This document shows positions 18,474 to 55,709 of a stretch of DNA of 64,000 bases, in pieces (positions within the stretch are counted from its first letter, which is position 1; each line of letters opens with the position of its first letter). The stretch lies in the NCBI GenBank assembly GCA_000231825.2, contig JH720336.1, forward strand, positions 252,235 to 316,234, read 5' to 3'. Position numbers and translations under genes: made by a program. The notes beneath the pieces are model-generated. The model saw only the letters and a program-made list of their open reading frames with translations. It ran no database searches and was not told the DNA's origin. This DNA is from Tetrahymena elliotti 4EA. Its lineage: Eukaryota > Ciliophora > Oligohymenophorea > Hymenostomatida > Tetrahymenidae.

Positions 18474-19091
18474 ATGAAAAAGAATAAATACTCAGATCTT
18501 CTCAGCTCAAGATTAACAGAAAACATGGATCTAAGAAATATTGAAGAAGGCTGGAAAGAAACGGCTTAAAATAATTTAATCACAATGTATTCTACAAATT
18601 ATAAAAATAATTCTGTTTCACTCAATAAATTTGTAGGAATAGTCAATGTAAATTATGAAAAAGCTGCTCAATACTATTTTGATAATCTAGAAAGTCAAAA
18701 AAACAACAGAGATATATGCGAATAGTTTATTAGACTTGAAACTATTGATGAAAATACTTTTATTGCTTTTTATTAATCTAAGAGTAACCAAATAGTTAGC
18801 TCAAGGTATGTTATAGGTGTTTAACACAAAAGAAAATTAAGTGAAGATGAATATCTTATCACACGTGATAGTATTGAACACCATCCTAACTCTCCCAAAA
18901 TAGAAGCTGTTAGAGCTGATTCAGTAATTTAAGCAACCTTCTTAAAAAAAATAAATGAAGATACAACTAAATTAGAAATTTATTCACTATTTGACCCTAA
19001 GATTAACCTTCCTATGACTTCTTCAAACTTGATCAACTAAAAAAAAATTGAATCAATAATTAAAGATCTAGAAACAATCAAAAAAATGTGA
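18474..19091 (+). CDS. START-like lipid-binding domain protein
   Basis: A single exon of 205 residues runs from ATG at 18474 to TGA at 19089-19091. The central and C-terminal parts have the pattern of a START fold: SSRYVIGVQHKRKLSEDEYL, then ITRDSIEHHPNSPKIEAVRA, then a beta strand KLEIYSLFDPKINLPM and a final helix. These correspond to the strands and last helix that close the lipid pocket in START proteins. No signal peptide or membrane anchor is visible, so it is probably cytosolic. The ligand cannot be predicted. The protein is about the size of the domain alone. It has no evident operon partner. Confidence 0.72.
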
Positions 19092-32363: not shown

Positions 32364-35300
32364 ATGTCTGCTGCCTAAGACGTATAATCTAAGGAATATT
32401 TAATTTCTCCTAAAGTATCATCTATACGGTAGGGGGATTCGACAAGGCGAAAAATGTTTTTACTAGAAAATAACTCATTTTAAAATTTGTAGAAGTAGGG
32501 TGATGATAATAACCCTTCTTATTACATGTATTCAGATGATCGTTATCAATAAGATCAAGATGCTATTAATTAGACAAACAATTTATTTAAAGCTACATCT
32601 TAGAGTATCATCAATAGATCTGATTTTCGATTTTAATTACATCGCCCATCTTTACTCTCTGTTGATAAGGTAAATGATTAGATACAATTATCTCCAAAGG
32701 GATTAATAAGCCCTAAAGATACTCTAAGAAGCTATAGTAACATGCTTTCATCATCTTAGTAGAATATAACTTCAGAATTTGGATTTAGAAATGGGGCAAA
32801 TATTTTTATGAAATCAAAGACATTAAACCTAATGAAACGATCTTAAACAAAAAAGGATGGATTTTTTGAATAATCTCCTAAAAAAAGGCTTCGAAAATCG
32901 AAGACTTAAAAAATAAATGACGATACAAAAACAGAGAATATGTAAAAATCAGATAGTAAAGAAGATGTTTACATAACAAATTTTACAGTTTAGCAAAAAT
33001 CAAATGATTTAGTATCAAAGAGAAATGAGGATTAAAAACCTGAAAAGGGGTTAAGCATAAAATGGAAAAAGAGAGGTATCTAAATTATTACACAAGTCTA
33101 GAAATTTTTAACAAGATTACAAAATCTTTCTTTTATAAGAAGATACGATAGTTAAACCTTACATTAATTTTAAGTCATTAATGATATTTGTGCTTTCTAT
33201 GATGAAAACAGAAAAAAGAAATTATATCGAAGAAAAGGAATTCTTTAAACTTTTTTGAGCTTTCTTAAGCAAGGATTAAACACCAATTAAATGATTTTAA
33301 AATTTACTAATCTAATCGATAAAAAATTCAAAGTATTTGAACCTGATTAGCTTTTTATTATTATCTGGATGATTATTTTGATTATTTTATTACTCCTCCT
33401 CCTCTTCTTAAATCCTATTTTTATGGCTTTTCAAGATGAGTAAATTACTTCTTTTTATCTTACATATTTTATGGATTTGATAACGCCAAACAGTTTTATT
33501 AGAAATCATCAATCAAATTTAGATTTCTTACAATCTTTAATTAAAAATACTTTGATGTTACATTAATTCAATAATTATTTAAATATTTTCTTACAATTTT
33601 TTTAAAAAAAGGGTGGCTAATAATGAACTGACTTCATCCAATATTCTATTAAATGGTATGAGTACATTACCTTTAATAATAATGTTTGCTGATGTTATTA
33701 TTAGATTCAATACTGGATATTATAAAAGAGGTTTGATAGTAGTGAAAAGACGACACATAGCAAAACATTACATTAAGCATAAGTTATGGCTAGATGTTTT
33801 TTTAATTTCATTGTTTGCCTTTTATGAGAATACCAATATAAATATTATGATGCTTGTTACTGTACTTTTGATTAAAAAAAGTACTTAAATTATCAAAGAA
33901 TTGGAGGATGCAATCACACTCGATAAAAAATAAATGGCATATTATTAATTAGTAAAGCTTAGTGTTTTAGTACTTTTTATAGGGCACTTTTGTGGATGTA
34001 TATTTTGGTCAGTTGGTTATTTTACAAAAGATCATTATAATGATTCTTGGGTGTTAAATAAATTTGAAAATAAAACTTTCTTTGAAAAATACATCAGTAG
34101 TCTTTACTGGGCCACCGTTACAATGCTTACAGTAGGATATGGAGATATCACACCTTCAAATAAAATAGAAAAATCATTTGTAATTATTATTATGATATTC
34201 TCATGTGGTATATATGCGTATTTTCTCAATTAAATTGGTTTTCTTATTGAAGAAATCACATACGAAGATAAAGAATTCAAATAAATTCACTCTCAAGTTT
34301 CTCTTTTCCTTAAAAAAAGAAACTTGGATGTTAAACTTTAAACAGAGGTAATTTAAATAAAAATCAAATATTATTTCAAAACAATAATTAAAAAAAATTA
34401 ATTTACATAAAAACATTCAATAACTGCATCAGTTAATTATTTCATTTTTCTTTATTAAGTGAATAATAAGATTTAAATATTAAACAAAATTATTTTTTTA
34501 GTGAGCTTTAATTTTTCAAGATTAAAACAATTCAAAATAAAGAAAGGACTTTCATAACAATTAGATTACAAATTAATATCACCTGATTTTAACTCATTTT
34601 TATTGAGAAAGCTTAATTTACTTTTTAAAATATCTAAAATTATAGGTAAAAAGATATTACCAGTATTTGCATTATGAAAAACATAACTATACAGTAAATG
34701 GAGAGGGGTTACTTCAACCTTTAAAGCAGTCTTTAAGATAGAAAGTTATATCTAACATTAATTCACAAATTTTGATTAAATATAAGCTATTTAAGAATTA
34801 GTTTTCTTAACCTTTTTTGGAGTAACTAGCTCTTAGAATGAAAGAATGCTCATTTAATTCTGATGATAAAGTTTGGGAATCATCAGATTTACCTGTGAAT
34901 AACAAGATATTTTTTATTATTAGAGGTTAAATAATATAATTGGTTAATAATTAGTTTTTTGTGAAAACTATTGATGAAGGTGGTTTTTTCAATGAAAAAT
35001 GTTTCATGATAGATGAAACACCTAATGTTTCTTTCGTTTCGACTTGCTTGTCATCGATTGTTTACTTAGATAAAAAGGATTTTTTAGAAGTCATTAAGAA
35101 TTTTCCTGTTGATTAAGAAAGATACTGCAAGTTAAGGGATGGTTCAAAATTTTCTAATTTCTTCAATCTTGATTCAAAGTGTGAAACTTGCAACCTCTTC
35201 ACTCACTCTTTTAATAATTGCCCTCAAGTGAATATCTTTATTAATAAACCTAAAATAATATATAGCTGGACTAAATCCAGTCCATAGGAAAGAAAATTTT

Positions 35301-37486
35301 AAGTTAGAAGGGAAATAGACTTACCAATGTAGTAGAGTGTTGCAAGTTATAATGCTTAAATCAATATTTAAAAGAAAGATATACGCTAAAAAAGATTCAA
35401 TAATGCTAGAAGTTAGCACTATACAGTATTAGAATCTGTAGTTGATTTTTTAGTTCATTAAAATCCTTTTTAATTAGATGAAGATAATCTTATAGAATAT
35501 ATGAAAACTATTTTTGAGAATAATGATATTAATAACAACAACAACAACAATAATAATAATAATAACAATGAGCCTTCCCCAGAGCAGGGAGGAATAGCTA
35601 AGCCACTAATAATACCTTTACAGTAAAATGCAGATGCAAAATTAAGATCCCTTATGCATCCTTATCAAATGTTGGGAAGTAGATTAGCTGAAGATTTAAA
35701 TCCGAATCCTAAAACTAATTTTAAATCTCTTCTCTTAAATGAAGATTATATAAAATAAAACTCAGGATAAGAAAGTCAATAAGGAAGTCTTCGTTAACTT
35801 TATTCATAGTAGTAATCAAAAACATCTACAAAAGGAAACTAACCAAGCATAAATGGTGCTCATTATTCTTCTCAGACAAACAATACTCCATAACAATCTA
35901 GCGTATCGGGAAAAAGAGTAATTTAAATGAAAACAACGAGTTAAACAGAAATTCCTTCAAATGAAAATTTAAAAGATTTACCTAATGAAATAGATATAAG
36001 GCATCATGATAAATATAGAGAGGCTACTGATGGTGGTGTTAGAAGAAGAGTCTCAACTGCAACAAGATCTTAGAACAAAATCACTCAAAGTATGACATAT
36101 AGTAACAATTCTCCTTTCCCACCAAACAATCCAATGGTTTAATCTAGTGGTGGTCAAAGTTCTTGTTCTGCCCCTGCTCCCTAAGATAGAGATGCTTCTG
36201 ATATTTCAATAGAACAAACAATAAATTATGATACTATGCTGCTCTATACAAATGATTAAGATGATTTAAATGTATCTGAAGCATTAAAAAATTTAGTAAA
36301 AAAGAAGATTAAAAAAGTTAATACAAATGGAGCTAATTAAAACAACAACAGTACTTTTACAATTTTAGAAGAAGAAACTCAAGAGAATCAAACTAATTTT
36401 TAAAAAACTTTATTTTAAAATAACACAAATATTGAAAGAGAAAGTACACTTACCCTAACAAATAACTAGAATGAAGGCTCTAGTGTTTAGGCAGACCTGT
36501 ATCCAAAGATAAAAGATGAAAATTCCCTTCCATTTTTACTTACAGGAAAACTGAATATTGACACAAGTATGAATATGAATTTTAGTAATTTTAATAATGC
36601 TAGCGGTCTTCCTAATACATCTTCTAATAACAACTTGAATACAAATACAAATACCCCTAATCCAAATCATATGAATAAAAGAAATTCTATTTCTAGTAAA
36701 TTTCATAATTACATAAGATAAAATAGTAATAGCATTCTGAACACTCCAATTTCTCCTATGAATAATACTAAATAAAGAAACGGTTTGACTAACAAGGTAT
36801 TCAACTATCCACAAATTCCTCCATAAACAGTTGCTAAAACAGAAGAAGGAAATTACATTCGTTTAAATTCTAATGTTAACTCAAGGGGTGGTAGTCAATA
36901 TGGGCATTCGCCAGCAGTAGGAGATGATTAACCAAACTCAATAAGAAATAGAAAGAAAACAGAAAGCAGTTTTAATAAACAGCACTCTTATCTTAAATAT
37001 ATCAATAGAATTAAAGAAGAAGCAACACCAAAAAATAACAACTCTAAGCCTAAGTTTGGTTCAAATAATTTTATTCCTTCTCTTTAAAATTTGCATGCTT
37101 AGTAATAAGAAGAAGAAATCATCTTTGTTTCTCCTCTCACACATGAATTTTCAGATATCCCTGACCTAGATAAATATCATATCTACTCAGATTATTTTCC
37201 AAATTACAATATTGATAAAATCATGGATATCCTCTAAACAAAGTATGAAATTTAGATTTAAAAATTTGAAAAAGAAAGAAAAAAGAAAAAGAGCGAATCA
37301 TAGTTAACAAAGCTAGAAAAATTTATATTAAAATTCAACACAAAGCGTAATAGTAGCAAAAAATCAAGGCCAACTCTCACTATGTCTCGCTCAAAAAGTA
37401 AAAAAAGAACTGTTGTACAAAGTGCAGGCGCTTCCCTTTAGAAATCTGTTTTCCATCGTTAGCACTCAATGAAATAATTGCAGTGA
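32364..37486 (+). CDS. Six-TM potassium channel with cyclic-nucleotide-binding-like domain
   Basis: Three exons (32364-33556, 33612-34347, 34664-37486) encode 1583 residues. Residues 1-230 are Q/S/K-rich and cytoplasmic. Hydrophobic segments include FIIIWMIILIILLLLLLFL, LPLIIMFADVIIRFNTGY, LVLFIGHFCGCIFWSVGYF and IIIMIFSCGIYAYFL. The pore helix and selectivity filter SSLYWATVTMLTVGYGDITP predict K+ selectivity. The linker RNLDVKLQTE is followed by a diverged CNB fold (IFFIIRGQI, TIDEGGFFNE, VYLDKKDFLEVIK). It lacks a clear phosphate-binding cassette arginine, so gating by cAMP/cGMP is doubtful. The rest, over 800 residues, is N/S/Q-rich with an asparagine run (35536-35572) and a basic C-terminus. 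It belongs to the large ciliate CNG/EAG-like channel group; ciliates use many such channels in ciliary excitability. The putative S4 has few positive charges, so voltage sensing is uncertain. Confidence 0.9.
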
Positions 37487-38387: not shown

Positions 38388-39308
38388 TCATTTCTTTTAT
38401 GAGCTTTTTCTTATCTCTTTTAAATCTTAATAGTATTTTAAGGCATTGCTAATGATTTCATATGCTTATTCTTTTCCTTAAAACTCTTCTAAAACCACTT
38501 CAACACCAATTCTACGTTTGTAATCTTCAAAGAAATGCTCAATTTCTTATATTGTATGTCTTGAAACATCATTTATATCATTTCTTTTTGATATAATAAT
38601 TCAAAGTAAATATAGCAATAAAACAGTTTATTCAAAAATATATGATATAATCAAAGATAAAGTTTCTATCTAATTAATTACACTTCTTAAAACTTGGGAT
38701 CATTCATAGCTACTGCAATAATCTTATCATCTTCTTCATTTCCATCAATCATTTGAATAACGCCTGTTTATAAATGTTATTGCATAGATGTTTAGTTATA
38801 ATATAGAAGTAAAAATTAGATTACCAATAACTCTAGCATCTATCAAAGTAAGAGGAGGTACCTTTTCGCTACATAAAACAAGAATATCAAGAGGATCTCT
38901 ATCACCAGCCATAGTAGAAGGGATAAATCCATAATGAGATGGATAGTGAACTGCATTATATAAAACTCTGTCAAGTTTGAGAAGACCAGATTCCTCCTCA
39001 ACTTCAAATTTAGCTCTGGATCCTTTAGGGATTTCAATCAAAGCTTGAACATATTAAGGATTATTTTATCCAGAAGAGATATGATAAAGAGGATTATTCC
39101 AAAAGTGATCATTAGGCATGAAATCAATCATTTCTAAGGTATCCTTCTTTTCGCTGTATTTAGATTTTGACTAATTTGAAGAGCCTCCACACTGTCCAAC
39201 AGATTCATCCTCAGGAGGTTTTGTGCACTTTCCCTCATCTTGTCTAGAGAGTACAATCAAATTTACTAAAATAAATGTTATAAATAGTATCAGTCTAAGT
39301 TTCCTCAT
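38388..39308 (-). CDS. Inorganic pyrophosphatase, family I, with N-terminal signal peptide
   Basis: Three exons (39308-38825, 38763-38682, 38583-38388; introns of 61 and 98 nt) are phase-consistent. This soluble PPase hydrolyses diphosphate to two phosphates with Mg2+. Diagnostic segments are IEIPKGSRAKFEVEEESG, YPSHYGFIPSTMAGDRDPLD (containing the D-x-D-P-x-D metal signature) and QEIEHFFEDYKRR. The protein starts MRKLRLILFITFILVNLIVL, a clear hydrophobic signal sequence, followed by a Cys-containing acidic linker of about 70 residues before the catalytic domain. Cytosolic PPases lack this. It therefore probably enters the secretory pathway, perhaps acting in a vacuole, acidocalcisome-like store or outside the cell. 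It ends KSSQKK before TGA at 38388-38390. Confidence 0.93.
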
Positions 39309-39679
39309 TTTTAAAAAATATGAGATTCTTTTCTGTTTGTAGTAAGAATTTAGTTTTTTAATTTTTTATTAAACACAATCAATAATATTCTATGGGTAAC
39401 AGATAACAGATTTAAATTAAATTTTTAATGTATCTTTATAAAAAAAGGTTAAATAACATCTACTTTTCTTTTTTCTATTCAGAAAATAAGCAAAAAAATA
39501 TGTAATTATAAAATAGAGTTTATTTTTGATCCTTTTTAATTATTTTTTTCTAAATATTATATACAAATGTTATGCTTAGTTAAATAAATATTATATAATA
39601 TATACTGAATTGAACAATTTAACTACCATATTGCAATTTTCATATTTTTATTCAAAATTATTTTTATTTTTTTTAATTT
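39309..39679. other. Short AT-rich spacer between pyrophosphatase and array member 1
   Basis: This is about 370 bp on the 5' side of the pyrophosphatase gene and the 3' side of the first array gene. No feature is visible. Confidence 0.55.
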
Positions 39680-40897
39680 TCAAGAATTTGATGAATCATC
39701 TATAAATCTATGACTACATCTTTTTTTATTATTTATGTTTTCAATTTATTCAAAAGTTTTTAATTTTTTTAGATTTTAGGAATAGAATTAATCAATAAAT
39801 GATTTGGAGCTAATTGAATATTCAATGTCTTCAAACAGATATGATAATTCTCTCCTTATTATATCTTCAATTTTCATATCACCTTTTTATCTAGAAATTC
39901 GCTGCCTATAAGATATAAGTTATTTAAGATCATATGGATCTACTTCGATTTCCACAATTTTATATCCAACATCATTATATACTAATTCACTGTTCTAGAA
40001 AGAACACAAGCTTGAAAAATTTTGCTTCTCTATAATTTTAATTGGGAATCCATCAAATGTGTTAATATGTAAAATGTTGGGACTTTATTATTATCCCTTT
40101 AAAGTTTCTCCTAATTAATTTATAGCATTAAGAGCATGTAAAGTGAGATCTTATTAATTTTTAATTAAATCAATTTTTTTTTATCTATTAAATATTTAGC
40201 TTACAGTATTATAGTCAGCTCCTAACAAATCTAAATAATTCTTCGAGTAACCAGAACAAACAATCTCAGAGTTTTTTGTTTAATAATTAATTCTAAAGAC
40301 TGAAAACCAAAACATTTTAGACTTGCTGTTTTAACTGAAATCAGCTAGGATTTTTTTAAAATCAGTTAAAAAACTATTCAATTATTCATCTTTTTAACTA
40401 ATTAAAAGTTTATTAACACCTTTCTTTTCAATTTCGTTTTGTATTTTATCCTTAATGAAAATTACCTTTTGAAGCATTTTTAATGCATAACTTTAAGGAA
40501 TGTTGGTATATTTACTTAGAATTTATTCTAAATCATAGATAGAATTTTATTCAATACTCATATCTTTTTAGTATTCTATCGAAACTATCCCAAGATTTTT
40601 ATCTTCGACTACTTTCTGGGTATTTTGCTAAGAATATCCAAAACAAAAGTAATTTAAAGACTGAAAATGTCTAAAAATTCCATCAGTAGTTATCTATAAA
40701 CCATTCAGGATGTTAATCGCATTATCATTCTTCAAATATTTTTCAATTGCACATTCATAAACTTTGCTTTAAAATTTTTATTTTCTCAAAAGTTATTTTT
40801 TATATTTTTTAAACCTCTTTTTAGATAAATCTTTTGCCTCAGGATTAATTTTAGAAGGAATCATCTAATTTGCTTAATAATCTTACATAATTTTCAT
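39680..40897 (-). CDS. Array member 1: PAS-like paralogue, lysine-rich N-terminus
   Basis: Single exon, 405 residues, ATG 40895-40897, TGA 39680-39682. I do not recognise the family. Residues 22-43 are strongly basic (DLSKKRFKKYKKQLLRKQKF), reminiscent of a nuclear localisation or DNA-contact region but without a leucine zipper. Core motifs follow in the order shared by all eight members: TTDGIFRHF near residue 70, FGYSQQ, SGYSKNYLDLLG at about 216, RQKKIDLI, NTFDGFPIKI at about 280, and RRELSYLFEDIEYS at about 348. It is the promoter-distal end of the array and lies 466 bp from member 2. Confidence 0.88.
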
Positions 40898-41363
40898 CTT
40901 CCAATTTTTTTAATATTAATTAAATTATCAAATGTCTTTATCTAGTTTATGAGATTCATCGAAAAATAAAGTAACAATTAAATAAACGATGTAAAATCTA
41001 ATCAAATATCCATTCACCATAAGTTAGCCAGTAAATTAGCGGATGTAAAAATAAATATGGATTATAAAAAATAGATTAAATTTAAACGAAAAAGTGCTTT
41101 GACTTTTCTTTCATTCTCTTTTTCTATTTTTTATAAACTTTTAATTAATTTATGTTATTATTAATAAACATTTTTACCACAAAATAATTAACTATTCAGT
41201 TTAAAAATAAATTAAAAAATGATGAATATATAGAAATTGCAAATAAAAAATCATGAAAGATATCAAGTTTCTATAACAAATAATTTGATAAAAAGTCAAC
41301 TATTTATACCCTTATATTTTGCATTGATGCATTGTGCAATTTAAATTCATTCGCAAACTAAAT
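40898..41363. other. Array spacer 1-2
   Basis: This is 466 bp of AT-rich DNA between two same-strand paralogues. It should contain the promoter of member 1. No distinct motif is seen. Confidence 0.5.
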
Positions 41364-42590
41364 TCAATGAGTAATATCTTTAACTTATGCCTTTTTATAT
41401 GAATGTGATTTATATTCTTTTTCTATTTTCTTAATTTTTTATATGTTTTCTTAATAATATTTTTCTATAAAATTCTAAGACTGGATTGAATATTCAACAT
41501 CTTCAAACTGATAAGATAGTTCCCTTCTAATAAAATCATCTATGTTTAGAAATTTATTATTTTAAAAAATTCTCTATCTGTAGTCTATTAGCTATTTAAG
41601 GCTGTCAATATCTACATCTATTTCAGTTAAACTAAACCCAAAATCTGGAAATTTACCAAAGTGTTCACTTTCTGTAAAGCAAGTATGAGCCTTAGTTTGT
41701 GTAATTTTAATAGGAAAACCATCAAAAGTAACTATAACTGTTTCGATAGAGTTATTATTGCATTCTATTTTATCTATTAATTCTAATCCAAGAAGAGATT
41801 GCAAATAAAAATCAAACTTATTCTATATAAGATCTATTTTCTTCCCTCTTAAAAATATATTTGTAAATGTTTCTGCATCTATTCCTAATAAATTTAAATA
41901 AGGCTTTGAAAAACCAGAATGGATTATCTCTGAGTTTTATATTAGGTAATTAACCCTTGTTAAAATATACCAATACATTTTATTTGGATTTTCCTATTTA
42001 TACTTGTATAAGATCTAAGCAAAATATTACAAAAAAAGAAGTAAATCTTCTTCTTTTTTCATCAATACCTAATCATTAACTTCTGCTCCAACTAGCATTT
42101 AATTAACATAAGAAATAAACTAATGTGTTTACTATAAAACTTTTTAAGCATACTCATGAGGGATATTAGGTATTTTTTATATCATATTCATGGCATCTTC
42201 GAAAGGTGCTTTGTTTACTTTACAGTTTCTCTAATAAACTATGTTAATAATATCCAATTCCTTATCATCTACAATTTTAAGAATCTGCTACTGATTATAT
42301 CCAAAAGAAAGATAATCTGTAGAATAATTATATCTCATAATCCCATCTGGAGTAATTTATAATCCTATGAACAAATCAATAGTATTCTGGTTATTGCTTA
42401 GCAGATTACTAAAAAGATCTATGTTAGCCTTGTACCTTTAAGCTTGTTTTATTTGACTTTTGTAAATAAGCTTTTTCTTCTACTGATCATTAGATTAACT
42501 TGATTCTTAGGATAAAGGTATTTCGCTAGTAATCTCACTAATTTAATTAAAACCTTATGTGAAATATATTGAATCTAAAGAGTCACACAT
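41364..42590 (-). CDS. Array member 2: PAS-like paralogue, intermediate N-terminus
   Basis: Single exon, 408 residues, ATG 42588-42590, TGA 41364-41366. It begins MCDSLDSIYFTQGF, with Ser/Glu-rich residues before a short basic stretch (QQKKKLIYKSQIKQ). It thus combines features of the acidic and basic classes. Core motifs are TPDGIMRYN, SFGYNQQ, SGFSKPYLNLLGID (GFS instead of GYS), LRGKKIDLI, TFDGFPIKI at about residue 288, TEIDVDIDSLKQLIDYRQR and FIRRELSYQFEDVEYSIQSQ. The C-terminus is lysine-rich. No internal TGA or splice site is needed. Confidence 0.88.
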
Positions 42591-43555
42591 CTTTTTAATA
42601 CTTTACTCAATAAATTAATTATTATGTTATTATTATTTATTATTTATAACAAAAATCTCTTCAATAAATAGAAAAATAATTCTAATTTTGTTTGATTGTA
42701 AAGATTTTTATAACTAAGTAAATTTTGATTAATTCTAGTGAATCTTCATATTTAACTTTAAGTCTATTAATAGAGAACTTATATCCATAGAAATTTTTGT
42801 GAATAAATTCTTTAAATTTTGTGGAAATTTCTATCTTTAATTTTCACTTATTTCCCCAAAAAAAATAACTCAATCTTTTTGAGTTTTAAATTTTCAAATA
42901 TTTTAAATTTGCAAATTTTTCTATTACAAAAATATGATTTTTACAGACATTATTTAATAGCATACATAATTTTTATTAATTATTTTTCATGTAAGCATTT
43001 TCTCTTTCTTAATCTTCTTCAAGAATTTATTATTGTTTTTGACAAAATTGTTGAATCAAATTAAGTATTAAATTTATTTTTGTTTATTAAAATCTTAAGT
43101 TTTATTTACAATAATTCAAATTTATTTATATAATATTAATTTTAAAATTTGAAATAAAAAAATATATTTCTAAAATAATTCTTTTATTTATGAAAAAACT
43201 TATGAAATATCTCTTTTATTAAAATCTTTAAATTTTAAATTTACCTAAAAACTACTATACATTTTCGAAAGTGATTATAAGATGGCTTAAAAAATAGAGT
43301 TAAAAAAAGGAAATTTATTTGAAAACAATCTTTCTGTTTTATTTTTAGTTTATTTCAAAAATGAAAGTATTTTTTCCAAAATATTTCTATGTAATTTAAA
43401 CTTTCAATATGACTAGCTTCTTGAATTAAATGGAGTATTGATTTAATTGAATTAATAAAATCTTTCAAGATTTTAACCCTTAAAAAATATATAAAAATAT
43501 AAAATATTTTGGATAAATTTAATAAAAAATCTCAAGCTTTTTTTCTTTATTTAGA
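42591..43555. other. Array spacer 2-3
   Basis: This is 965 bp of AT-rich DNA, probably 5' of member 2 and 3' of member 3. No coding frame of the array family survives in it. Confidence 0.5.
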
Positions 43556-44755
43556 TCAATTTTAAATTATTTTATAAGAGCATTCTTTTTAATTTATCAA
43601 TTATTATTTTATTATCTCAAGATCTTAAACATTTTATGAGTAAAATTTATCTATAAATTATTAGGATTAAATGGAGTATTCCACATCCTCAAAAAGATAA
43701 GAGCTTTCTCTTCTGATAAAATCATCAAATTTTGAAGTATATGATTAAGATAATCTTTTTCTATATTCAATAAGATTTTAGAAACTTTGAAAATCAACCT
43801 CAATCTCAATAAGAATTAAGCTAAACTCATGCTTTTAATACATCATTGGTTTTACTTGATTACACAAATTGGCCTTTTTTTAGTATATTTTTAAAGGAAA
43901 TCCATCAAAAGTAGTGATAAGTGACTCATAATTTTCATAAATTAAAACTGAATCTTTTCCTGTTATATTTGATAAACCTTTTAATGCTTACTTAGTAATA
44001 TCTTCTTATTGCTTAACTAAATCTATTTTTTTGTTTCTCAAATATATTTATCTAATTGAATTTACATCTAATCCTAGTAAATCGAGATAAGCCTTTGAAT
44101 ATCCTATTTAAGATGTTTCATACATTTTATATTCTAAGTTGATTCGAGATATTGAATAAAAATACAAAGAATTTGGATTAGTTATTTGATATTGAGTTAA
44201 AAATAAAGCACATTTTTATTAAAAATCAGTAAATTTTTCGTTTAATTCTACATATTAGTTTGCAATTAATAGGTTATCATCATATTGAAATCTTTAATTT
44301 ACCAAATAAGAATATTCATTTAATAAATCCATTATTTCTAAGCGATAAACGCCTTAAATATTATTAATACTACTCATAATTCTATCTAAAGAATCAACTT
44401 AAATTGAGTTTTATTTTCTATAGTAAATATTTACAGCATTTAATTTGGAATTTTCTTCTATTAGTTCAGCCTCTTACAGTAGATAATTAAAGCTTATCTA
44501 TCCGATTGATGGTATGAATCTTAATACACCATCACTACAAACATAAGTAATATTATCCAATTTCTAAATTCTACATAGCTAAATAAAATAACTATCTAAT
44601 GGTACAGTTAGTAAATCTTTCTTCTTTTAATACTTTCTTTTAGGCTTTCTTATGTCTTTCTTTTTGTTTTTTAAGTTATGATTTATTGCTTTTACAGTTC
44701 TAGATATTTTACCCTATTTTTCTTCAATTTACTAAGTTTCAAGGAGTTCTTACAT
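43556..44755 (-). CDS. Array member 3: PAS-like paralogue, lysine-rich N-terminus
   Basis: Single exon, 399 residues, the shortest member, ATG 44753-44755, TGA 43556-43558. Residues about 29-52 are highly basic (NHNLKNKKKDIRKPKRKYQK). The N-terminal motif is CSDGVLRFIPS, but the usual FGY is replaced by SFNYL. The rest is canonical: IGYSKAYLDLLGLD, LRNKKIDLV, TTFDGFPLKI at about residue 282, IEIEVDFQSFQNLIEYRKR and FIRRESSYLFEDVEYSIQSQ, where Leu of RRELSY is Ser. It groups with member 1 by its basic start. Confidence 0.88.
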
Positions 44756-45440
44756 TTTATTTATCAAAATCAATTAAACTATCTAAAATTACTATTTTTC
44801 GAATTTTGGGTTAATTAATCTATAAAATTAATGCCACAATTTATTTAGGAATTATTAACTATGAGTTGAATACTAAAGATTAGATTCTATTTTTATATCA
44901 TATATTATGAATCAAATGAGCAAAAAACATTAAAGGAAATTGAAAAAAGTAAAAAAAATTTTTAATATGTCTGAGGAATCAAATCTACCACATTTAGTTT
45001 TTTAAAGTTTACTAAAAGACTATTTTTTTTAATTATCAATTATCATCATTCATATATTATTTCATACAGGCTATGGCTATTAGTCTGTTTAAAAGTTTAT
45101 CAATGGTATGTAAATATTACAAATTATTAGTTTATGATTAAATATTTTATCTTAATAAAGATAATTATAATTTACTATCACTGCTTGACATGAAAATAAA
45201 AATAATTTTAAGGGTGTAAAGGCTTATATATAAGAAAAACACTAAATAGTAACTTAAAATAATAGAAGACAAAATAAAATATAATATAATGATAATATTT
45301 TTAATATAAGTATTATTGGGTTGAATTTAAGTGAAAATAAGAAAGCATTTTGGTGATCAATCAATTAATTGATCATATTTTAATTTAGTAAAACAATTTT
45401 ATCAAACATAATTAATTAAATTTGAAGAAGTATAATGGCT
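44756..45440. other. Array spacer 3-4
   Basis: This is 685 bp of AT-rich DNA between members 3 and 4. No distinct feature is visible. Confidence 0.5.
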
Positions 45441-46751
45441 TCAAACTAACTATTCTTTTTTTTCATCATTATCTATGTATTTATATTTACATACAAGATG
45501 AGAAAATTCCTTCATTTCCTAAAGTTTTTTTAACCGTTTAACATTCTCAGTATAGAATTTATCAACAAAGGACTAAGAATGAACTGAATATTCAACATCC
45601 TCAAATTTATAAGAAAGTTCTTTTCTTAAAAAATCATCTATATTTAAATTTTTACTTTTTTGATAGATTCTTTTTCTGTATTCAATTAGATTTTCAAGGC
45701 TTTTTAAGTCTACATCGATTTCAGTGGTTGATATAAAAAATTCACTATCTAATCCTTAAGTTTGCTAATGTTTATACAATTCACAATGCAATATTTTTTA
45801 TTGATAAATTTTAATTGGGAATCCATCAAATGTTACAATATCTGACTCATAATATTCCGATTAATCACCGCATCTACAATTACTCATTTACTAGACACCT
45901 ATCATTGATTAATATGTTACATCTTGAATACTTTATAATAGATCTATTTTTTAATTTCTTAAAGCTAAATGAGTTAAATTATCATAAGTCAAACCTAATA
46001 AATTCAAATATTCTTGAGAATATCCCACTTCAACTGTTTCCATTTCCTTAGACTATAAATTTACTTTACCAATAGAATAGGAATATAACTTATTTGTCTA
46101 TTATTCTGAATATTGCTTCAAAAATTTTTGACTAAATCGTCTAAATTATTAAAATTCATATTCTCTTTAGATAAAAATTTATTCATTAGTAATATGTATA
46201 AGATTATTTAATGTCTCTCCCATACTGTAAAAATTTATGAATAACTAATGAGCAGCTTCATATTAGATAGATGGAATCTTTTTAATAAGTTACAAAGCTT
46301 AATCAAATTTTAAATAATTAAAATATGCGCTCTTTTAAAATGATACTTATACTACTCCGATATCTTTTAATTCTTTTACGATTTCCACTTTTTGATCCTA
46401 AAATCCAAAGCTCAACCAATTTTAACAAGGTAGGAATCTGAGAGCTCCATCATTTGTGAGTATAAATTCAGAAGAGAAATTAATTTTTGAATCTTAAACA
46501 ATTTACTAAGTAGTTATCCCTACAGTTTATAATTATTCTTAATTTCTTTTAACTTTTTCTTCATTTTTATCTGAAACAACAAGTTCTAATTATTGATTAA
46601 TAGCAGTAGTACTATTGGTATATTAATTTATCTAATTATCTTTAAATAAAGTAAATGAAGGAGATGAAGTATCAAATGTTCTAAAGTCTTAATCTTCATC
46701 CACCATGAAGTCATTTTGATAATATGACTCCTCTTATAATTCAGAGCTCAT
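45441..46751 (-). CDS. Array member 4: PAS-like paralogue, acidic N-terminus, longest copy
   Basis: Single exon, 436 residues, ATG 46749-46751, TGA 45441-45443. The first 60 residues are acidic and aromatic (MSSELQEESYYQNDFMVDED), followed by a Q/T-rich linker. Core motifs are TNDGALRFLP, LSFGFQDQKVEIV, VGYSQEYLNLLGL, LRNQKIDLL, TFDGFPIKI at about residue 307, TEIDVDLKSLENLIEYRKR and FLRKELSYKFEDVEYSVHSQ. It is the first member of the acidic class when reading from low coordinates. Acidic/aromatic leaders like this occur in activation domains, but that is only an analogy. Confidence 0.88.
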
Positions 46752-48339
46752 TTAATAGAATGATTGTTTTTTATCGAAATTAAATTAAATTAAGAAAAGA
46801 GTTTATTTAATTTTACAAACTTTCTATTCTAAATTTTTAGTCATTAAGCTGTTGAGCTGTCTTCTATTTCATTTATTGAATTGTTTAATGATTATTTGTA
46901 AGATAATTTTACTCCGAATATTCTAGAAGATAATTCTAACTATTTTATCAAAATTTGTTCTAAAGAAACTTTGGAGAAATTAACGTTTAAATTGAAAAAA
47001 AAATATTTGTTTGGTAAATTTTAATTTAAAAAAATTATCATTTTCTCTTGCCACTTTTAATCAAAAGTTTACTTTTAAAAAGAAAAAAAATTTTTTTCTT
47101 TGTGATATTTTGAAACAAGATTTAAAATTTAATAAATTGGAAAAAGTTATTTGATCAGGAATTTATTCTAAATAGTTTAAGATTTTACTTTTATTTTTAT
47201 TAAAAAAGGAATTTTAGAACAATTCCTTTAAGTACCATTAGCTGTATCAAATGTAACATTACTATTATTTTAGAAACCAACTATTTATTTTCTTCTATTT
47301 AAAATATGCAAAAACCTTTAATTTGAAATTAAAAATTTGTTTAATTACACTTTATGTAAACATAGTAATATCCCATCTTTAAAGACAAATTAGCAGTGGC
47401 TCTTATTGAATTATATGTTTATTTATAATACATACTCCTTTATCTTAGCTGCCCCCTTATGATTTTTATATAAATAAAGGAGATCACAGATATAATATAC
47501 ATTTTGGGCAAATTAGGATGCATTCTTTGATTTTTATTTTATTCAAAATTGATGAATATTTGTGATGAATTTTTTGTAACAGGTGAAAATAAAATTTTTT
47601 TATTTTTTAAAGAATTGAAGAGAAGCTAAATGTGAGAACTATATATAAATCTTTTTATTTATTTTGATCTCTTTTTAAACAATTTTATTCATTGAAATAT
47701 TATTTTATGAAGGTTAATATGAAAAAATTTTAAAGAGGAAATTTTCATTTTTTAAAAAAAGAAATAATCTTAAAAAGTAGTCAGAAAAATTTTCAAATTA
47801 CATAAAGTATGTTTTTAAAATTTATTTATTATTCGTAAGAATTTTTGATCAAATTTTATTTCTTTTTGAGTTAACTTCCATGCTTTTAATCAATAAGCAA
47901 TAAGTCAAGATGTACATCATTTTATTAATCAGCTTTTTAACATTTTTATTATTTTTATGGCAATTTTGAAAACAAGAAAGAAGAAATAATAATTTTTCAA
48001 ATAGAAAGTAGTGAGTAAAATGCTACAGAATATTAAAAAAACTTTTTAAAATATTATTTATTTGAATTATCTTTCTTATATGTGCTTTTCAACAAGAGCT
48101 TTTATATGCATAATTGTATTTATCAGCTTTTTAACCTCTTTATTCATTGCATTTTATGATTTTATGGAATCAATTAGGAAAAAAACACAAAAGTATAAAT
48201 CATCTTTTTTTAAAATAGAAAGAAAGTAGTGAGAAAAATAAACAATTTATATAAAGTAAATTTTTAAAATATGCTAAAAGTAGTTATTATTTTGAATAAA
48301 ATTTATTTTTTTTTGTTAGGTTATTTTATTTGTTTTTTG
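46752..48339. other. Array spacer 4-5, longest, with decayed repeat copies
   Basis: This is 1588 bp, about twice the usual spacer. Its right part carries degenerate direct repeats of the 3' end of member 5 (see repeat entry). The left part shows no array coding sequence that I could align. Confidence 0.55.
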
Positions 48340-48390
48340 TCAATTAGCAATAAGTTTATATGTGCATTATTGTATTTATTTTTTTAAGAG
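47770..48390. repeat. Degenerate tandem duplications of the member 5 3' end
   Basis: Three related blocks lie at 47899-47942, 48090-48136 and 48341-48390. They share caataagt-like starts, atgtacat/atgtgcat cores and, in the first two, atcagctttttaac. A second landmark, gaaagtagtgag plus aaaat-like bases, recurs at about 48004 and 48218, with a weaker form near 47776. The third block overlaps the C-terminal codons of member 5. The period is about 200-250 bp. Confidence 0.6.
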
Positions 48391-49587
48391 TTGTTCTACA
48401 TTTTCTTTGTAGTATTTTTCTAAGAATAATTAGGAGTGGATAGAATATTCAACATCTTCAAATAGGTAAGAAAGCTCCTTTCTTATAAAATCTTCATAAG
48501 AGAGATTAAAATTTTGCATCAATCTTTATCTATAATTGATAAGCTATTATAAACTTTATAAATCAACATCAACTTCTGTAATAACAAAATAGTAATCATG
48601 TTCTCCTCCAACTATTTAGCTATTAATTAGCATTGAAGCATAATTTCTTCTTTTCATTAGAATTTTTAATGGAAATCCATCAAAAGTTACAATTTCACAT
48701 GATAGAAATTATTGGTTATTTCCTAATTCTTTCATGGATGTCAAACATGCATTTGTAATATCGCTCTTTTAGGGTATTAAATCTATTTATTTTCCTCTTA
48801 GAATAATTTATGAGAGTAATTCTGGATTAATACCTAATAATTCTAAATAAGATTTTGAATATCCATAGCTAGAAATGTCAATGTCTCTATATTTCTCACT
48901 TATCCTCAAGATTTAGTAAGTGAACATAATATTACTATTTTACTTATTAAATTAATCTAAAAAACTCAAGCAAATTTATTTAAATCTTTAAAATTCATCA
49001 TCTTTAAAAGCCAAAGTAGAGTTTGAGGTTTCCTATTAAGAAAAAAGTTTCTACATTCCCTACATAATATTTCCAAACCAAGTTAATGTTTATTGAGCTA
49101 ACTATTGCTAACAATTTGGAAAATTTTATAAATATTTAAGAGCCTACTCATATGAACTCAAATTTTGTACATTTCTCGTAAAAGAGTTAATATTTACTAA
49201 TCCAGAACTAGAAGAGTAATCCTCTACTTCAGATTTTTCATACTGATTAAAACCAAAATAAACAGGTTAAATAGAAGGAAAATATCTAATAACTCCATCG
49301 CTTGTAAGGTATATACCTGTTGAGAGGTCCAATTGAAATTTCTGCTGAAAAAAATATGGCCGCATAATATAATTAAAAGAAATATCTCCCTCATCAACTG
49401 TTTAACTACTGATTTTGCTTTCTTATTCGCTATAATTTTAGTTTTCAGAGTTAGAAAGATTGATTTTGTGATTATTAGAAATGTTTTAGAACCTAAACAA
49501 ATCTTCATTATCAGCTACATTAGATGATATAAGAAAACTAAAATCATTTATGTTTCCTTTCATGTTTTCAAAGTAACTATCTTCCAT
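48340..49587 (-). CDS. Array member 5: PAS-like paralogue, acidic N-terminus
   Basis: Single exon, 415 residues, ATG 49585-49587, TGA 48340-48342. The leader is acidic and N/S-rich (MEDSYFENMKGNINDFSF). Core motifs are LTSDGVIRYFPSIQ, VYFGFNQYE, YGYSKSYLELLGIN, LRGKQIDLI, VTFDGFPLKI at about residue 301, TEVDVDLQSLQQLINYRQR and FIRKELSYLFEDVEYSIHSQ. The last codons belong to the sequence that is repeated in decayed form in the adjoining spacer, indicating local duplication. Confidence 0.88.
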
Positions 49588-50347
49588 ACTTTTTTAACAC
49601 AAAAAATCACTTAATTTTTGTATTAGTTTGTTTGATTTTTATTTCAACTAGATTATTTTTCAAGTCGTAGCGGCTTTGTATGTGTTTAAATGCCAAAAAA
49701 TACTTCTCATCATAATTTATAAGAATTTACAAGTTTTTTTGTTAAAGTTAAAGGCAATTAAATTTTAATCCTTCATTTTTGTTTTTAAAAACCACAAAAT
49801 TTATTCCTTTTATGAATTATTAAACAATTTTGTTTTAAAATCTTAATCATTTTAAAGGCAAAAAATAATAAATTACTTAAACAAATAATATTTTTTGAAA
49901 TATTACAATACTTATATTTCTCTCTGCTTCCACAATTAAAAATTTCTAGATGAGAATAAAATGTAGAGAAAGATGATAATATTTTGATTTCAATTTGGTG
50001 CAATGTCTATGAAATAAAGGTATCCATTTTTTTCTAACTTGAAAAATTAAATCTTAAAAAATATCAAAAAAAGTTTGCTCTTCATCAAAAATAATAAAAT
50101 AAATTTGATGACTCAATCAATAAAAAAAAGAGAAAGATTATCAAAAAATTAAGTTAAAAAATCAATATAAATGAGTTAGATTTTAACTGCAAAAATTATA
50201 AATAGAGTTGATAAGATTTTTAGTTGATATCAATTGATCATTTTCTTATTTAAAAGATAAAGAAATGATTGGTTGGTTGGCTATACAGCGATTGATATTT
50301 TTGAGATATTAAATTTATTGGTTTAATAAAATTTGTTTAATTTTTTC
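49588..50347. other. Array spacer 5-6
   Basis: This is 760 bp of AT-rich DNA. Short frames in it (for example 49785-50003) look like chance ORFs. No feature is supported. Confidence 0.5.
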
Positions 50348-51589
50348 TCATTAATTGATCATTTTATAATAATATTTATATTTATTTTTGATTTTTTGGT
50401 TTTTAAGATCTTTTAATTATTCAATGTTTTAAACATAGTATTTTTCTAAGAAAATTTATGTTTGCACTGAATATTCAACATCTTCATAAAGTAGAGATAA
50501 TTCTTTTTTCAAGTAATCTTCATAGTTTTGCTACTTATGCATGAGTCTTTATCTATAATGAATAAGTTATTACAATTCATACAAATCGATATCTATTTCT
50601 ACTATGATAAAGCCATATAAACATTACATGTTTGGTATTGCATCTCCATCAAATCCATGACTAATACTCTTTTTTGTAAATTTAAGTTTGATAGGAAATC
50701 CATCAAAAGTATTAATCTGCTACTCATAATATTCTTCAATTAAACCTTTGGTCATATTACATACTCCTTATAATCCTAAAAAAGAAATATCTGCTTTTTC
50801 TCTTATCAAATCTAGTCTCTTATTTCTCATGAGTATCTAACTCAAGGCACTGCTTTCTATTCCTAATAATTATAGATATGACTTAGAATATCCTGTACGA
50901 GCTATTTCTGGATCCCCCTCACATAAATTTAAGCGTAAAATTGTGTAATAAAACATTTAATTAGGATTATTTTAGCAAAAGTACTGAAGATAATTAAAGC
51001 AATGCTATAAATACAACTAATATTCTACTTCTTTAGCATCTTTCATTTCTTCTGTCACTACAGTTTAGAGGTAACTTTTAATGTCATACATAATTTATTC
51101 AGTTTAAGTTAAGATTTAATAAACTTTCTAAAAATCTATATTTGGTACATACTTTAAGAAGTTTAATGCATCTTAAAACTTGTTTTTTTTATATATTTTA
51201 TCATTAGAATATGATATGTCAAGAACACCTAATTTATGTAATTCCGCTACCTATAATACTCTTTACTACCAATATCCAAAGCTAATTTAATCTAAATTAT
51301 AATTAAACCTTATAGCTCCATCACTAGTGATTGTAAAGCCATTAAATAAACTGAATGTTTGATTATATTCATTCAAATATGGATTAATATAAATACAATT
51401 CCAATTTGGTTATTTGATTTTTGATACTAAATCTCTAGAATCATTTTAATTGGAAGTATCTTAGCTAAATTATTTTTAATTTTATGGTGTTTCAAACAAC
51501 TCTTATTTTGTTTCTTCAGTTTAAAAACTATCAAAGGCTTCTGGATTATATTGAAAATCTGCAAACTCAAAATTTAATTCTGATTCCAT
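50348..51589 (-). CDS. Array member 6: PAS-like paralogue, acidic N-terminus
   Basis: Single exon, 413 residues, ATG 51587-51589, TGA 50348-50350. The leader is acidic and aromatic (MESELNFEFADFQYNPEAF). Core motifs are ITSDGAIRFNYN, SFGYWQQ, TGYSKSYLQLLGIE, MRNKRLDLI, NTFDGFPIKL at about residue 294, VEIDIDLYELQQLIHYRQR and YLKKELSLLYEDVEYSVQTQ. The C-terminal block is the most diverged of the set (KKELSLLYED). The tail after it is lysine- and tyrosine-rich. Confidence 0.88.
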
Positions 51590-52368
51590 TAAAACAAACA
51601 ATACAAAATAGATTAATTAGTAAGCAATTCTAAGCTTTTTGTTCAGTTTATTTCAAAAATTTATTATATGCCAAATAATATCAAAAATTAAGAAGGCTTT
51701 ATATTGAATGAAATAGTTTTTATCAGGCTCAAAATATGTAAATTGTAAGAAAAAGTATTCTGATAAAATGCAATAAAAATTATCTATTTTATTCATTTCA
51801 ATTAGCTTATTCATTTATTGTTAAGATTTTTATTAAATTAAAAATACTTCAAAATAGATCAACCTTTAAATCACTCTCTCAATCAATCAATTTTATTAAA
51901 TTAACAAACAAAGCCAATTTTTAAATGAAACTATTTACTTAAATAATTATTGTTTATTATTTTATAAAAAATTTATATTTATTAAATCTCAAAAATAGTG
52001 AAATACTTCTCACATTTTTTAAACCATAATAATTGGTGTTTTTGATTGTTTTCAATTTTAAAAATTTAATTAAGATTTACCTTGTTTACAATTTAGTTGT
52101 TTTTGCTAATTCACCTAAATCAAAATATGTTTGTATTTATTTTTAATAAAGAGAATTTGAAATAACCTAATAAAAAAAAACTATTATAATATATAATATA
52201 TTTTTCTTATGAATGAGAGTTACAAATGACTTATCATGAAAATTTAAATTATAAAATAGAGTTACATAGATATATTTTTTTAAAAGTTTTTTAGAGTTAA
52301 TTTTTAATATTTTTTAAAGTAATTAATTAATTATAGTTTTATTATTTTATTAATTTATTTCTACTAAT
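51590..52368. other. Array spacer 6-7
   Basis: This is 779 bp of AT-rich DNA. No motif is seen beyond general composition. Confidence 0.5.
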
Positions 52369-53655
52369 TCAAGATTAAATATATCTATATCCACATACTT
52401 TAGAAAAATCTTACTTTTTTAACTATTCAATCTCTTTCAGGTTGCCTATATTTTGAGAGTAGAATTTTTCAAATAAATAATATGAATCAACAGTGTATTC
52501 CACATCTTCAAATAGATAAGAAAGCTCTCTTCTCAAGAAGTTTTCAATATTGATTTAATTTGACTTTTAGCTGATATTTTATCTATATTGAATTAATTAT
52601 TGTAAATCTTTAAGATCAACATCTATTTCGGTTATTATAAACTGATATTCGCTTTCATCTCCTATAAATTTAGGGATTCCAAATAAGTTTGTGTAATTTT
52701 TCTTGAACAATTTAATTTTAATAGGGTATCCATCAAAAGTTGTAATTTCTTATTCATAATATTCTTATTTATTTGACTGATACATAACTGATAAAGCTTG
52801 TAGACTTATATTGGTGATATCTGATTTATTTTTTGCTAGATCTATTTACTTTCTTCTAAGTAAGAGTTAACTGAGTGAACTATAATCAATTCCTAAAAAT
52901 TCCAAATAAGTCTTTGAGTATCCTGTGTGATAATACTCCATATCCTACAATTTCACATTGAGTCTGCTGATCTGGTAATGAAACATTTTAATTGGATTTA
53001 ATTTACTGTATTCTTCTATAAACGAGAAAAATAATTTAGTATAACTTTCAAATTCCTGATTTTTAAAATTTTATCTGGAGTCATTATTTTCTGCTAAAAG
53101 CTACTAACCTATGAATTATCTTATTTATTTTATTGATGTTTCTGTTTTTTAGAAGCATTTACTTGCAAATTCAAAGGGAAAATTTTATAAAGAACTCATA
53201 AAGTTGATAGCTTATTATGTGGAGTGCTTTCTCAATTAATTATTCCTCTATTATTATATATTTATAATATTTAGTTTAGGAATATCTTCTATTTGTATGG
53301 CATTTTATTATTATTATAATCCAAAGCAAAATTAATTTGTGTTATCTAAATATCTAACAACTCCATCATTTGTAATATATAACCCTGTATATATATTAAT
53401 CTAGAGATCCAAAAAATTCATAATATCTTAAACATTATAAGCAGGCTATACTTTTTAGTTTTTTTAATATGAATACTAACTATTTTAATGTTATGATTCA
53501 TCTTCATCATTTATTGATTATTGAAAAAAACTACTTTTTTCATCCCTCTGGTGTTAACTTTCGGAAACAGAATTTAAAGAATTAGATTAGTAAGGAAAAT
53601 GTTAACTCATTAAATGTAAAGTATTATCAGAATTCATTTGAATTTCTTCGCTCAT
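52369..53655 (-). CDS. Array member 7: PAS-like paralogue, Q/S-rich N-terminus
   Basis: Single exon, 428 residues, ATG 53653-53655, TGA 52369-52371. The first about 80 residues are Ser/Gln/Asp-rich and weakly acidic (MSEEIQMNSDNTLHLMSQHF). Core motifs are ITNDGVVRYLDN, FCFGLQQQQ, TGYSKTYLEFLGID, LRRKQIDLA, TTFDGYPIKI at about residue 306 (Tyr for the usual Phe), TEIDVDLKDLQQLIQYRQN and FLRRELSYLFEDVEYTVDSY. No intron or internal TGA. Confidence 0.88.
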
Positions 53656-54497
53656 TATTTCTACTTTAACCAAGCTCTATCAATATTAGTCACTTATTTT
53701 TTTGCTTTTAGCAAATAATTTGATAAAAATAATGATTTAATTTGATTCAATTCTATTTATTAATTAATTAGAAACCACAAAAATAAGACTAGCACAAACT
53801 TCTAATGTTTAATGTTAAGAATAATAAAAGAAAAAAAAGATGTATTTGTAATTATAAAAACATTAATTATTTCATCTATTTGTAAATAATATTATTCATC
53901 TCACATCTCATGAGTGTTTTTTTATTTAAACAAAATCTATATTTCAGATGATCTAAATAAGTTTAAAATAAACTTGGAAATTATTATAAATATGAGAATT
54001 GAGTAATTTATTCTAAGATTTTTGTTTTTATTATAATTAGAGGGGAAAAAGAAAATGAAAAAAAAATGTTTTCATTAAGAAATTATTTTTGCCAAATTAA
54101 TAATAATAGACCACTTACTTTAGAAATACAGTTTAGAATTCAAGGTTGCTATAGGGTACTTAATTTACAGAAATAGTTTATCTTTGATACTTTTATTTAA
54201 TGATATTTTTTTTTTCATAAAAATTTCTTTTTTTTCTCTAAATTAAGTAAGGTCAGCTAAGCGAGCTGATCATATCAAATCTTAAAAAAGTGTATTTTTT
54301 ATTTTGCATCAAAACAAAAGTTAATTTCACATTTTTCTTAATTAATAGCCTTATTGCATAAAATGGAAAATAAAAATGATTTTTTTATTTCTAAAATAAA
54401 AGCATAAATTAGTTATGTTTAAATTTGAAAAAATTTTTTCTACTTTGACTGAAACATGAAAAAATAAATTATCAATTTTTTAAGAAGAATAAAATTG
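53656..54497. other. Array spacer 7-8, with a GC-rich hairpin
   Basis: This is 842 bp of AT-rich DNA. It holds the inverted repeat at 54251-54271; otherwise nothing is recognised. Confidence 0.5.
54251..54271. other. Short GC-rich hairpin
   Basis: GGTCAGCT (54251-54258) can pair with AGCTGATC (54264-54271) around the loop aagcg, giving seven Watson-Crick pairs and one G.U pair. It stands out in AT-rich spacer DNA, 250 bp beyond the stop codon of array member 8. It could be a 3'-end signal or chance. Confidence 0.45.
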
Positions 54498-55709
54498 TCA
54501 ATTTTTGAGTGCAATTTTCTTTTTTTGCTATTAGAGTTGTTGAATATTTTGGTTATAATATTTTTCTATGAATCTTTGAGAACAAACAGAATACTCAACA
54601 TCTTCAAAACGATATGAAAGCTCTCTTTTAATAAATTCATCTAAATTTTGCTTTTAATTTTAAGAATTTTGTGAAATTCTTAGCCTATATTCTATTAATT
54701 ATTGTAAGTTGTAGATATCGATATCTATTTCAGTGAAAGTTAAAATGTATTCACAGGTTAAATTTTTTACTTGATAATTAGACTTGAATAAATCATTTAA
54801 ATTTCTTTTTTTTTAGATTATCTTTAATGTAAAACCATCAAATGTTGTGATACTGGATTAATATATTTCTTCATTAAGTGATTTCTCAATTACTTCCAGA
54901 GCATATAAAGACTAGTTAGTGATATCTTCTTTTTTACTCATTAAATCTACTTGCTTGTTTCTGAAAAAAATTTGTTTTAGAGAGTCATTATCTAAGCCTA
55001 ACAACTCTAAGTAAGCTTTTGAGTACCCCATTTATACTTATTCTAAATCTTTCAACTAAAAATTTAATCGGCCAATAGAATACCAAAACATCTAATTAGG
55101 ATTGTTTTAATTATACAATTCTAAGTAACTATTGCAAAAATTAATAAATTTTATAAATTCTTAATCTTTTTGAATTTATAAATATTTTGTGTTTACATCA
55201 ACTAATTAGCTAGATAAAAACTATTACATCATTTCATTTTTATTGAGCATCTCATATACTTTTTAATAATTGCAGTTATATACTTTTTACATAAAGTCTA
55301 GACCATCATTTATATCATTTTTATAAAGATTTTAGTCTCTTATCATCTAAATATTAATAACTCCTAAGTTTTTATTTTCTTCTACAAGTTAAACTATTTA
55401 CTGCTAGTATCCAAAGCTTACAGGATCTAATGAAGCTGATAATCTTAATACTCCATCACTTGTAATAGTTAAACCTGTCATGAAATTTAGGGTACTTTAT
55501 TATGCGAAAAATGAGGGATTGATTTAAACAATTTAAGTTAAATTTGATTCATTTTTATTTTTTTAGCTAAGCAAAGTATTTTATTGAGAAGGCTGTCTTT
55601 AATTATATTCATCCTCAGTTATGATTCTATCTTATAAGTGTAATTCAGTTATTTATTATTCTGATTGCTTGCTATCTTCTATTGAATATTCAAAAGGTGT
55701 GAATTCCAT
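54498..55709 (-). CDS. Array member 8: PAS-like paralogue, acidic N-terminus, outermost copy
   Basis: Single exon, 403 residues, ATG 55707-55709, TGA 54498-54500. The leader is acidic (MEFTPFEYSIEDSKQSEQQ). Core motifs are ITSDGVLRLSAS, SFGYQQQ, MGYSKAYLELLGLD, FRNKQVDLM, TTFDGFTLKI at about residue 289 (Thr for Pro), TEIDIDIYNLQQLIEYRLR and FIKRELSYRFEDVEYSVCSQ. It marks the 5' end of the array in transcription order and is divergent to the MGSCAGK gene 1.4 kb away. Confidence 0.88.

Follow-up and report, generated by a model that had tools for sequence, protein, structure and literature searches.

We analysed a window of 64,000 nucleotides from the ciliate Tetrahymena elliotti 4EA (contig JH720336.1, positions 252,235 to 316,234, forward strand), in which eight tandem genes, o1 to o8, encode related proteins whose core, as modelled in o5, very probably adopts a PAS fold. 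The predicted fold is of a known kind; within the reach of the searches made here, no description exists of the family, of its size or of its conserved C-terminal tail.

The window is AT-rich. With the standard code it holds no ATG-started open reading frame (ORF) of 150 amino acids, and with NCBI table 6, in which TAA and TAG encode glutamine, it holds 86; base composition and ORF counts under both codes read as ciliate macronuclear DNA. Under table 6 all eight family ORFs are open on the minus strand, at the positions where an earlier note on this sequence had placed them, and TGA closes each. Their lengths in Table 1 are those obtained with the chosen starts; an upstream ATG is possible for o2 and o4, and the T. 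thermophila relative of o2 begins at the same start as the shorter model. The seven intergenic gaps measure 466-1588 bases with a GC content of 16-20%, and the coding parts have 22-25%. Ordered motifs align across all eight proteins with 35 invariant columns, and motif variants exist (FNY replaces FGY in o3; TFDGFT occurs in o8). Each copy has a best cross-species BLAST match of 226-608 bits, and its TGA-free frame exceeds chance (about 4e-4 for 400 codons, taking the intergenic TGA rate), confirming that the eight same-strand ORFs with common motifs are real. A profile scan of the window in six frames found only these eight genes, with no remnant of a ninth copy below E 0.09, and no common upstream motif (7-9 bases, at least three G/C) was found in five or more of the eight upstream stretches of 300 bases.

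The AlphaFold model was built for o5 only, from a 46-sequence alignment, and the other copies were assigned through the alignment, with o5 residues 216-345 carried over as their PAS core. The model has a mean predicted local distance difference test score (pLDDT) of 71.9, a predicted template modelling score of 0.69 and a good core; residues 1-70 and 375-389 fall below pLDDT 50. It runs from a beta region (72-137) through helices (146-216), including linker helices of 24 and 28 residues, to elements in PAS order (222-341) and further helices. Residues 222-341 are predicted to form a sheet of five strands, with the helices inserted after the second core strand and before the third (order b-b-a-a-a-b-b-b). 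The best 50 of 747 Foldseek rows against the PDB were all proteins bearing PAS or light-oxygen-voltage (LOV) domains, no other fold appeared among the PDB structural rows listed, and these share 4-16% identity with o5. The 50 entries listed with VIA were likewise all PAS- or LOV-bearing, although the title of one, an engineered HaloTag, does not say so. A viral fold library returned nothing at E <= 0.001; its weak rows include two named PAS domain and two named histidine kinase. The earlier note had likened the segment GYSK.YL.LLG to PAS, and in the model it does sit where the PAS helices start: GYS ends the second core strand, and the first helix contains YL.LLG. TFDGFP runs across the hairpin made by the two strands that follow, EIDVD ends the last strand, and LI.YR.R lies in the post-PAS helix. 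The N-terminal beta region, modelled alone from eight sequences as a candidate separate domain, reached a mean pLDDT of only 50. That the core is instead another alpha/beta sandwich resembling PAS in prediction is very unlikely: the structural scores are only moderate and the profile of 46 sequences had one PDB match, the 55 kDa erythrocyte membrane protein, but the element order is canonical, the structural rows listed are PAS or LOV proteins, and that match lies outside the PAS part.

Sequence searches gave the family no name. Pfam yielded nothing above cut-off in the eight window copies or in 18 far relatives, and the best match among the 46 aligned members (25 of 29 weak families listed) was to an unrelated family at E 0.0042. 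NCBIfam gave nothing in the eight copies, and PDB sequences gave no credible match for the family. The match to the human 55 kDa erythrocyte membrane protein, at E 0.17 in a first search and 0.008 in a later one, spans profile positions 111-207, in the N-terminal region and linker; it disappeared with a wider profile and was taken as chance. None of six T. thermophila locus tags searched for the family occurs in the literature searched, and in literature joining Tetrahymena or ciliates with PAS, no title or abstract start concerns it. The family is thus unrecognised, as the earlier note had held.

The eight aligned copies were searched against 5.8 billion proteins. This returned 41 proteins, from T. 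thermophila, T. malaccensis and T. utriculariae only, of which 40 are named hypothetical. The remaining one, P0009 of T. thermophila, is named 'glycoside hydrolase family 1 protein' without a precomputed Pfam domain; it groups with the PAS-like family in the o7 clade, and its name is likely a misannotation. A tree was built from 33 own-genome pieces and the 41 database proteins, 74 sequences in all; in it, six window copies pair with genes of other species at support 0.999-1.0: o1 with ABPG74_008177, ABPG72_018667 and TTHERM_00327160; o2 with ABPG73_012807, ABPG72_018668 and TTHERM_00327170; o5 with ABPG74_008172, ABPG72_018671 and TTHERM_00327220; o6 with ABPG72_018672; o7 with ABPG74_008170, ABPG72_018673 and P0009; and o8 with ABPG74_008169. 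Identity of these orthologues to the window copies is 46-77%, and 37% for the short model P0040. Because gene numbers in each other species follow the window order, the array is older than these species. The copy o3 falls in a separate clade (support 0.99) with L028 of the same genome, P0020 and P0026, none of which was seen to lie in an orthologous array, and no orthologue of o4 was found among the 41 proteins, an incomplete list. Pairwise identity among the window copies is 28-41%, with a proportion of synonymous differences (pS) of 0.59-0.70; they diverged long ago and are not recent duplicates of one another. Beyond Tetrahymena, three protein searches gave no relative, within the limits of a shared-word search in which a far-member query missed P0001-P0041, and the stretches picked out by pattern scans, 313 in prokaryote genomes and 38 in viral contigs, included no confirmed relative.

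Genome searches with a window protein and further members gave 66 distinct places after merging, one of which, on contig C17, probably represents a second exon belonging to another place, leaving about 65 loci as a lower bound. A family-profile match was present at 37 of the 38 first places and in all 19 further fetched regions, which hold 22 members; six additional places are supported by pairwise matches only. Ten places lie on contig C50, eight on C44 (the window array), three on C3, three close together on C1, and two each on C7, C38, C43 and C84. The ten on C50 form a second, larger array of 46 kb in mixed orientation (about 283977-330359). The earlier note had singled out the window array as a candidate system; its genes are real, but it is not self-contained, being one of several arrays of this family. 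A six-frame search of the same genome with two Pfam PAS models found one place with PF00989 and three with PF13426, so that the hidden family may outnumber the annotated PAS places. The far member L034 shares 83-86% identity with P0042-P0044 among three species; it has no close paralogue in its own genome (the next place is at 29%) and is conserved more than the array copies. Members P0019, P0022, P0025, P0028, P0030, P0033, P0036 and P0038 lie on T. thermophila contigs of 21.9, 26.6, 27.2 and 30.6 kb; such very small scaffolds could be assembly ends or short-lived, non-maintained chromosomes (cf. PMC5182062).

Conservation is graded along the protein. The disordered front averages 14% identity among window paralogues and 33% among orthologues (12 pairs); in the same order, the mean values are 33% and 71% for the beta region, 19% and 57% for the linker helices, 38-42% and 65-77% for the PAS pieces, 52% and 76% for the post-PAS helix, and 56% and 83% for the tail. 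This comparison indicates that the beta region and linker are kept within lines and differ between lines, while the tail, conserved around E.SYLFEDVEYS....F.EKYY..N and poorly ordered in the o5 model, is largely common to all; per-column tests agree. The earlier note had read the open, divergent copies as selection to keep and diversify them. Retention is borne out by the orthologues and by the eight closest pairs within a set of 36 members from the same genome, all outside the window and three sharing members, in which the ratio of non-synonymous to synonymous substitution (dN/dS) is 0.19-0.41; these recent duplicates are under constraint, not diversifying selection, and no diversifying signal was found. 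Some more distant pairs elsewhere in the genome reach a pS of 0.58. Across the window copies themselves, the dN/dS comparison that the earlier note had proposed is defeated by their divergence. In the PAS core, no Cys/His column is conserved in over half of the 46 members; over the whole of residues 200-404, a linker column, 206, is the single one with C or H in more than half. The family members are predicted to be soluble, the highest 19-residue hydropathy in the eight copies being 1.26 on a simple scale that stands in for a trained predictor.

A variable front and a common tail in soluble proteins fit a PAS signalling module. We tentatively suggest that the variable front half and the PAS pocket of each copy may admit a cue of its own, which the common C-terminal tail would pass on to one partner. 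A cue, different in each copy, would be received at the PAS domain or the variable front half; the PAS pocket would bind a ligand, the post-PAS helix would carry the change onward, and the conserved tail would dock on a common effector. The module itself is predicted from the fold, and cue and output are inferred from conservation. Several observations weigh against this proposal. Foldseek gave no match at E <= 0.001, and the structural Z stays below 8, a range in which common arrangements score too; no score decides the matter by itself. No Pfam PAS family exceeded its curated cut-off in the eight copies, the 18 far relatives or the families listed for the 46 members. The pS of the window copies is near saturation, which makes their dN/dS unusable, and in P0026, one of the 46 aligned members, a segment reaches a hydropathy of 1.66. 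The tail could just as well be conserved for dimerisation or stability, and linker divergence could reflect loose helix packing, not input diversity. A more specific version is unlikely: that the roughly 65 Pfam-invisible PAS proteins would form a cytosolic receptor repertoire, each with its own metabolite or food-bacterium cue and one tail leading to one effector, as a single-cell counterpart of a chemoreceptor gene family.

PAS domains commonly dimerise, and the family might form a dimerisation network without ligand, of adaptors pairing mutually or with another PAS protein and with the tail in the dimer interface. The two linker helices ahead of the PAS domain and the lack of a conserved Cys/His column in its core are consistent with this somewhat improbable alternative; the tail, poorly ordered in the single-chain model, fits either reading. 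It is doubtful that the array reflects unguided birth and death of tandem copies that all do one housekeeping job, have no special diversity of input and differ by drift. Tandem duplication is frequent in Tetrahymena (PMC6564038), and at one family place (C74, L035) the match is confined to the C-terminal quarter, but separate copy identities are kept across species and recent duplicates are constrained. A transcription role, which the earlier note had thought conceivable, would have the Q/N/S-rich front activate or repress, and copies tune gene sets in starvation or mating. As a function of the family it is decidedly unlikely. In the window copies, Q+N+S make up 33% of the front part, but Q-rich stretches are common in ciliate proteins anyway. 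A strongly basic front stretch (at least 7 K/R in 12) occurs in 11 of the 46 aligned members, including o1 and o3, but is absent from the other six window copies; a narrower basic pattern in the first 129 residues finds 13 of 46 and misses o3. No DNA-binding domain passes the Pfam cut-off in the eight window copies or in the 18 far relatives, and none has an E below 0.004 among the 46 members. Weak matches under the cut-off include a nuclear-receptor ligand domain in L039 (E 0.0051) and HU-type DNA binding in L051 (E 0.021). Transcription is thus possible for members with a basic front stretch and is not supported in general.

The tentative signalling module can be set beside known systems. 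KCNH channels (ERG, EAG, ELK) and LOV photoreceptors gave the best structural rows and resemble the family in predicted fold and element order, but no transmembrane pore segments of the KCNH type are predicted in the eight copies, and the family adds the N-terminal beta region, the linker helices and the conserved tail. LOV photoreceptors carry a conserved flavin-adduct cysteine in the PAS core; this column is absent from the PAS core of the 46 members, and a LOV-type light sensor is unlikely because no Cys/His column is conserved there. The PAS-B domains of basic helix-loop-helix (bHLH) PAS proteins (AHR, HIF, ARNT) are among the Foldseek rows listed, but the family shows one recognised PAS in the model, beside the unassigned N-terminal beta region, and no N-terminal bHLH domain appeared in the Pfam scan of the eight copies or among the families listed for the 46 members. 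Unlike PAS histidine kinases, the eight copies gave no kinase in Pfam, and 69-85 residues follow their PAS core. Tandem expansions in ten Tetrahymena genomes, mainly of leucine-rich-repeat genes, are described in a paper whose main text nowhere mentions 'PAS' (PMC6564038). Tandem expansion inside the genus is common to both, but Pfam scans of our family gave no leucine-rich repeat, and six of the eight array copies have orthologues in other species.

Table 1. Genes, predicted PAS cores and conserved tails of the array (positions in the window).
Feature	Position	Strand	Remarks
Gene o1	39680..40897	-	405 residues; clade with P0013, P0015, P0040
Gene o2	41364..42590	-	408 residues, orthologue-supported start; 474 residues from first ATG at 42788; clade with P0001, P0002, P0004 at 72-77%
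Gene o3	43556..44755	-	399 residues
Gene o4	45441..46751	-	436 residues; 467 residues from upstream ATG at 46844
Gene o5	48340..49587	-	415 residues; modelled copy; clade with P0007, P0008, P0012 at 61-63%
Gene o6	50348..51589	-	413 residues; clade with P0003 at 67%
Gene o7	52369..53655	-	428 residues; clade with P0006, P0009, P0018
Gene o8	54498..55709	-	403 residues; clade with P0005 at 66%
o1 predicted PAS core	39929..40330	-	mapped from o5 model by alignment
o2 predicted PAS core	41601..41993	-	mapped from o5 model by alignment
o3 predicted PAS core	43784..44182	-	mapped from o5 model by alignment
o4 predicted PAS core	45699..46103	-	mapped from o5 model by alignment
o5 predicted PAS core	48553..48942	-	residues 216-345; model and structural searches
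o6 predicted PAS core	50576..50971	-	mapped from o5 model by alignment
o7 predicted PAS core	52606..53001	-	mapped from o5 model by alignment
o8 predicted PAS core	54708..55106	-	mapped from o5 model by alignment
o1 conserved post-PAS helix and tail	39749..39928	-	alignment
o2 conserved post-PAS helix and tail	41421..41600	-	alignment
o3 conserved post-PAS helix and tail	43607..43783	-	alignment
o4 conserved post-PAS helix and tail	45519..45698	-	alignment
o5 conserved post-PAS helix and tail	48376..48552	-	alignment
o6 conserved post-PAS helix and tail	50402..50575	-	alignment
o7 conserved post-PAS helix and tail	52426..52605	-	alignment
o8 conserved post-PAS helix and tail	54522..54707	-	alignment

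Elsewhere in the window, an inorganic pyrophosphatase ORF (PF00719, E 7.6e-27; 38748-39629, minus) lies downstream of o1 on the same strand. An ion-channel ORF (PF00520, E 2.7e-15; 33658-34674, plus) is flanked by long ORFs without a Pfam match (32364-33623 and 34838-37483), which may be further exons of that ion-channel gene. A START-domain ORF (E 8.3e-11; 18009-19088, plus) and an amidohydrolase ORF (E 4.2e-20; 30260-31093, plus) are also present.

In summary, neither a name nor a Pfam domain attaches to this family, which counts about 65 loci in one ciliate genome, has relatives in the model species T. thermophila and probably shares the fold of a sensor. If a common tail does serve variable inputs, these ciliates would possess a large sensing repertoire inside the cell. 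One pull-down could then reveal its single output, and many 'hypothetical proteins' would become testable together.

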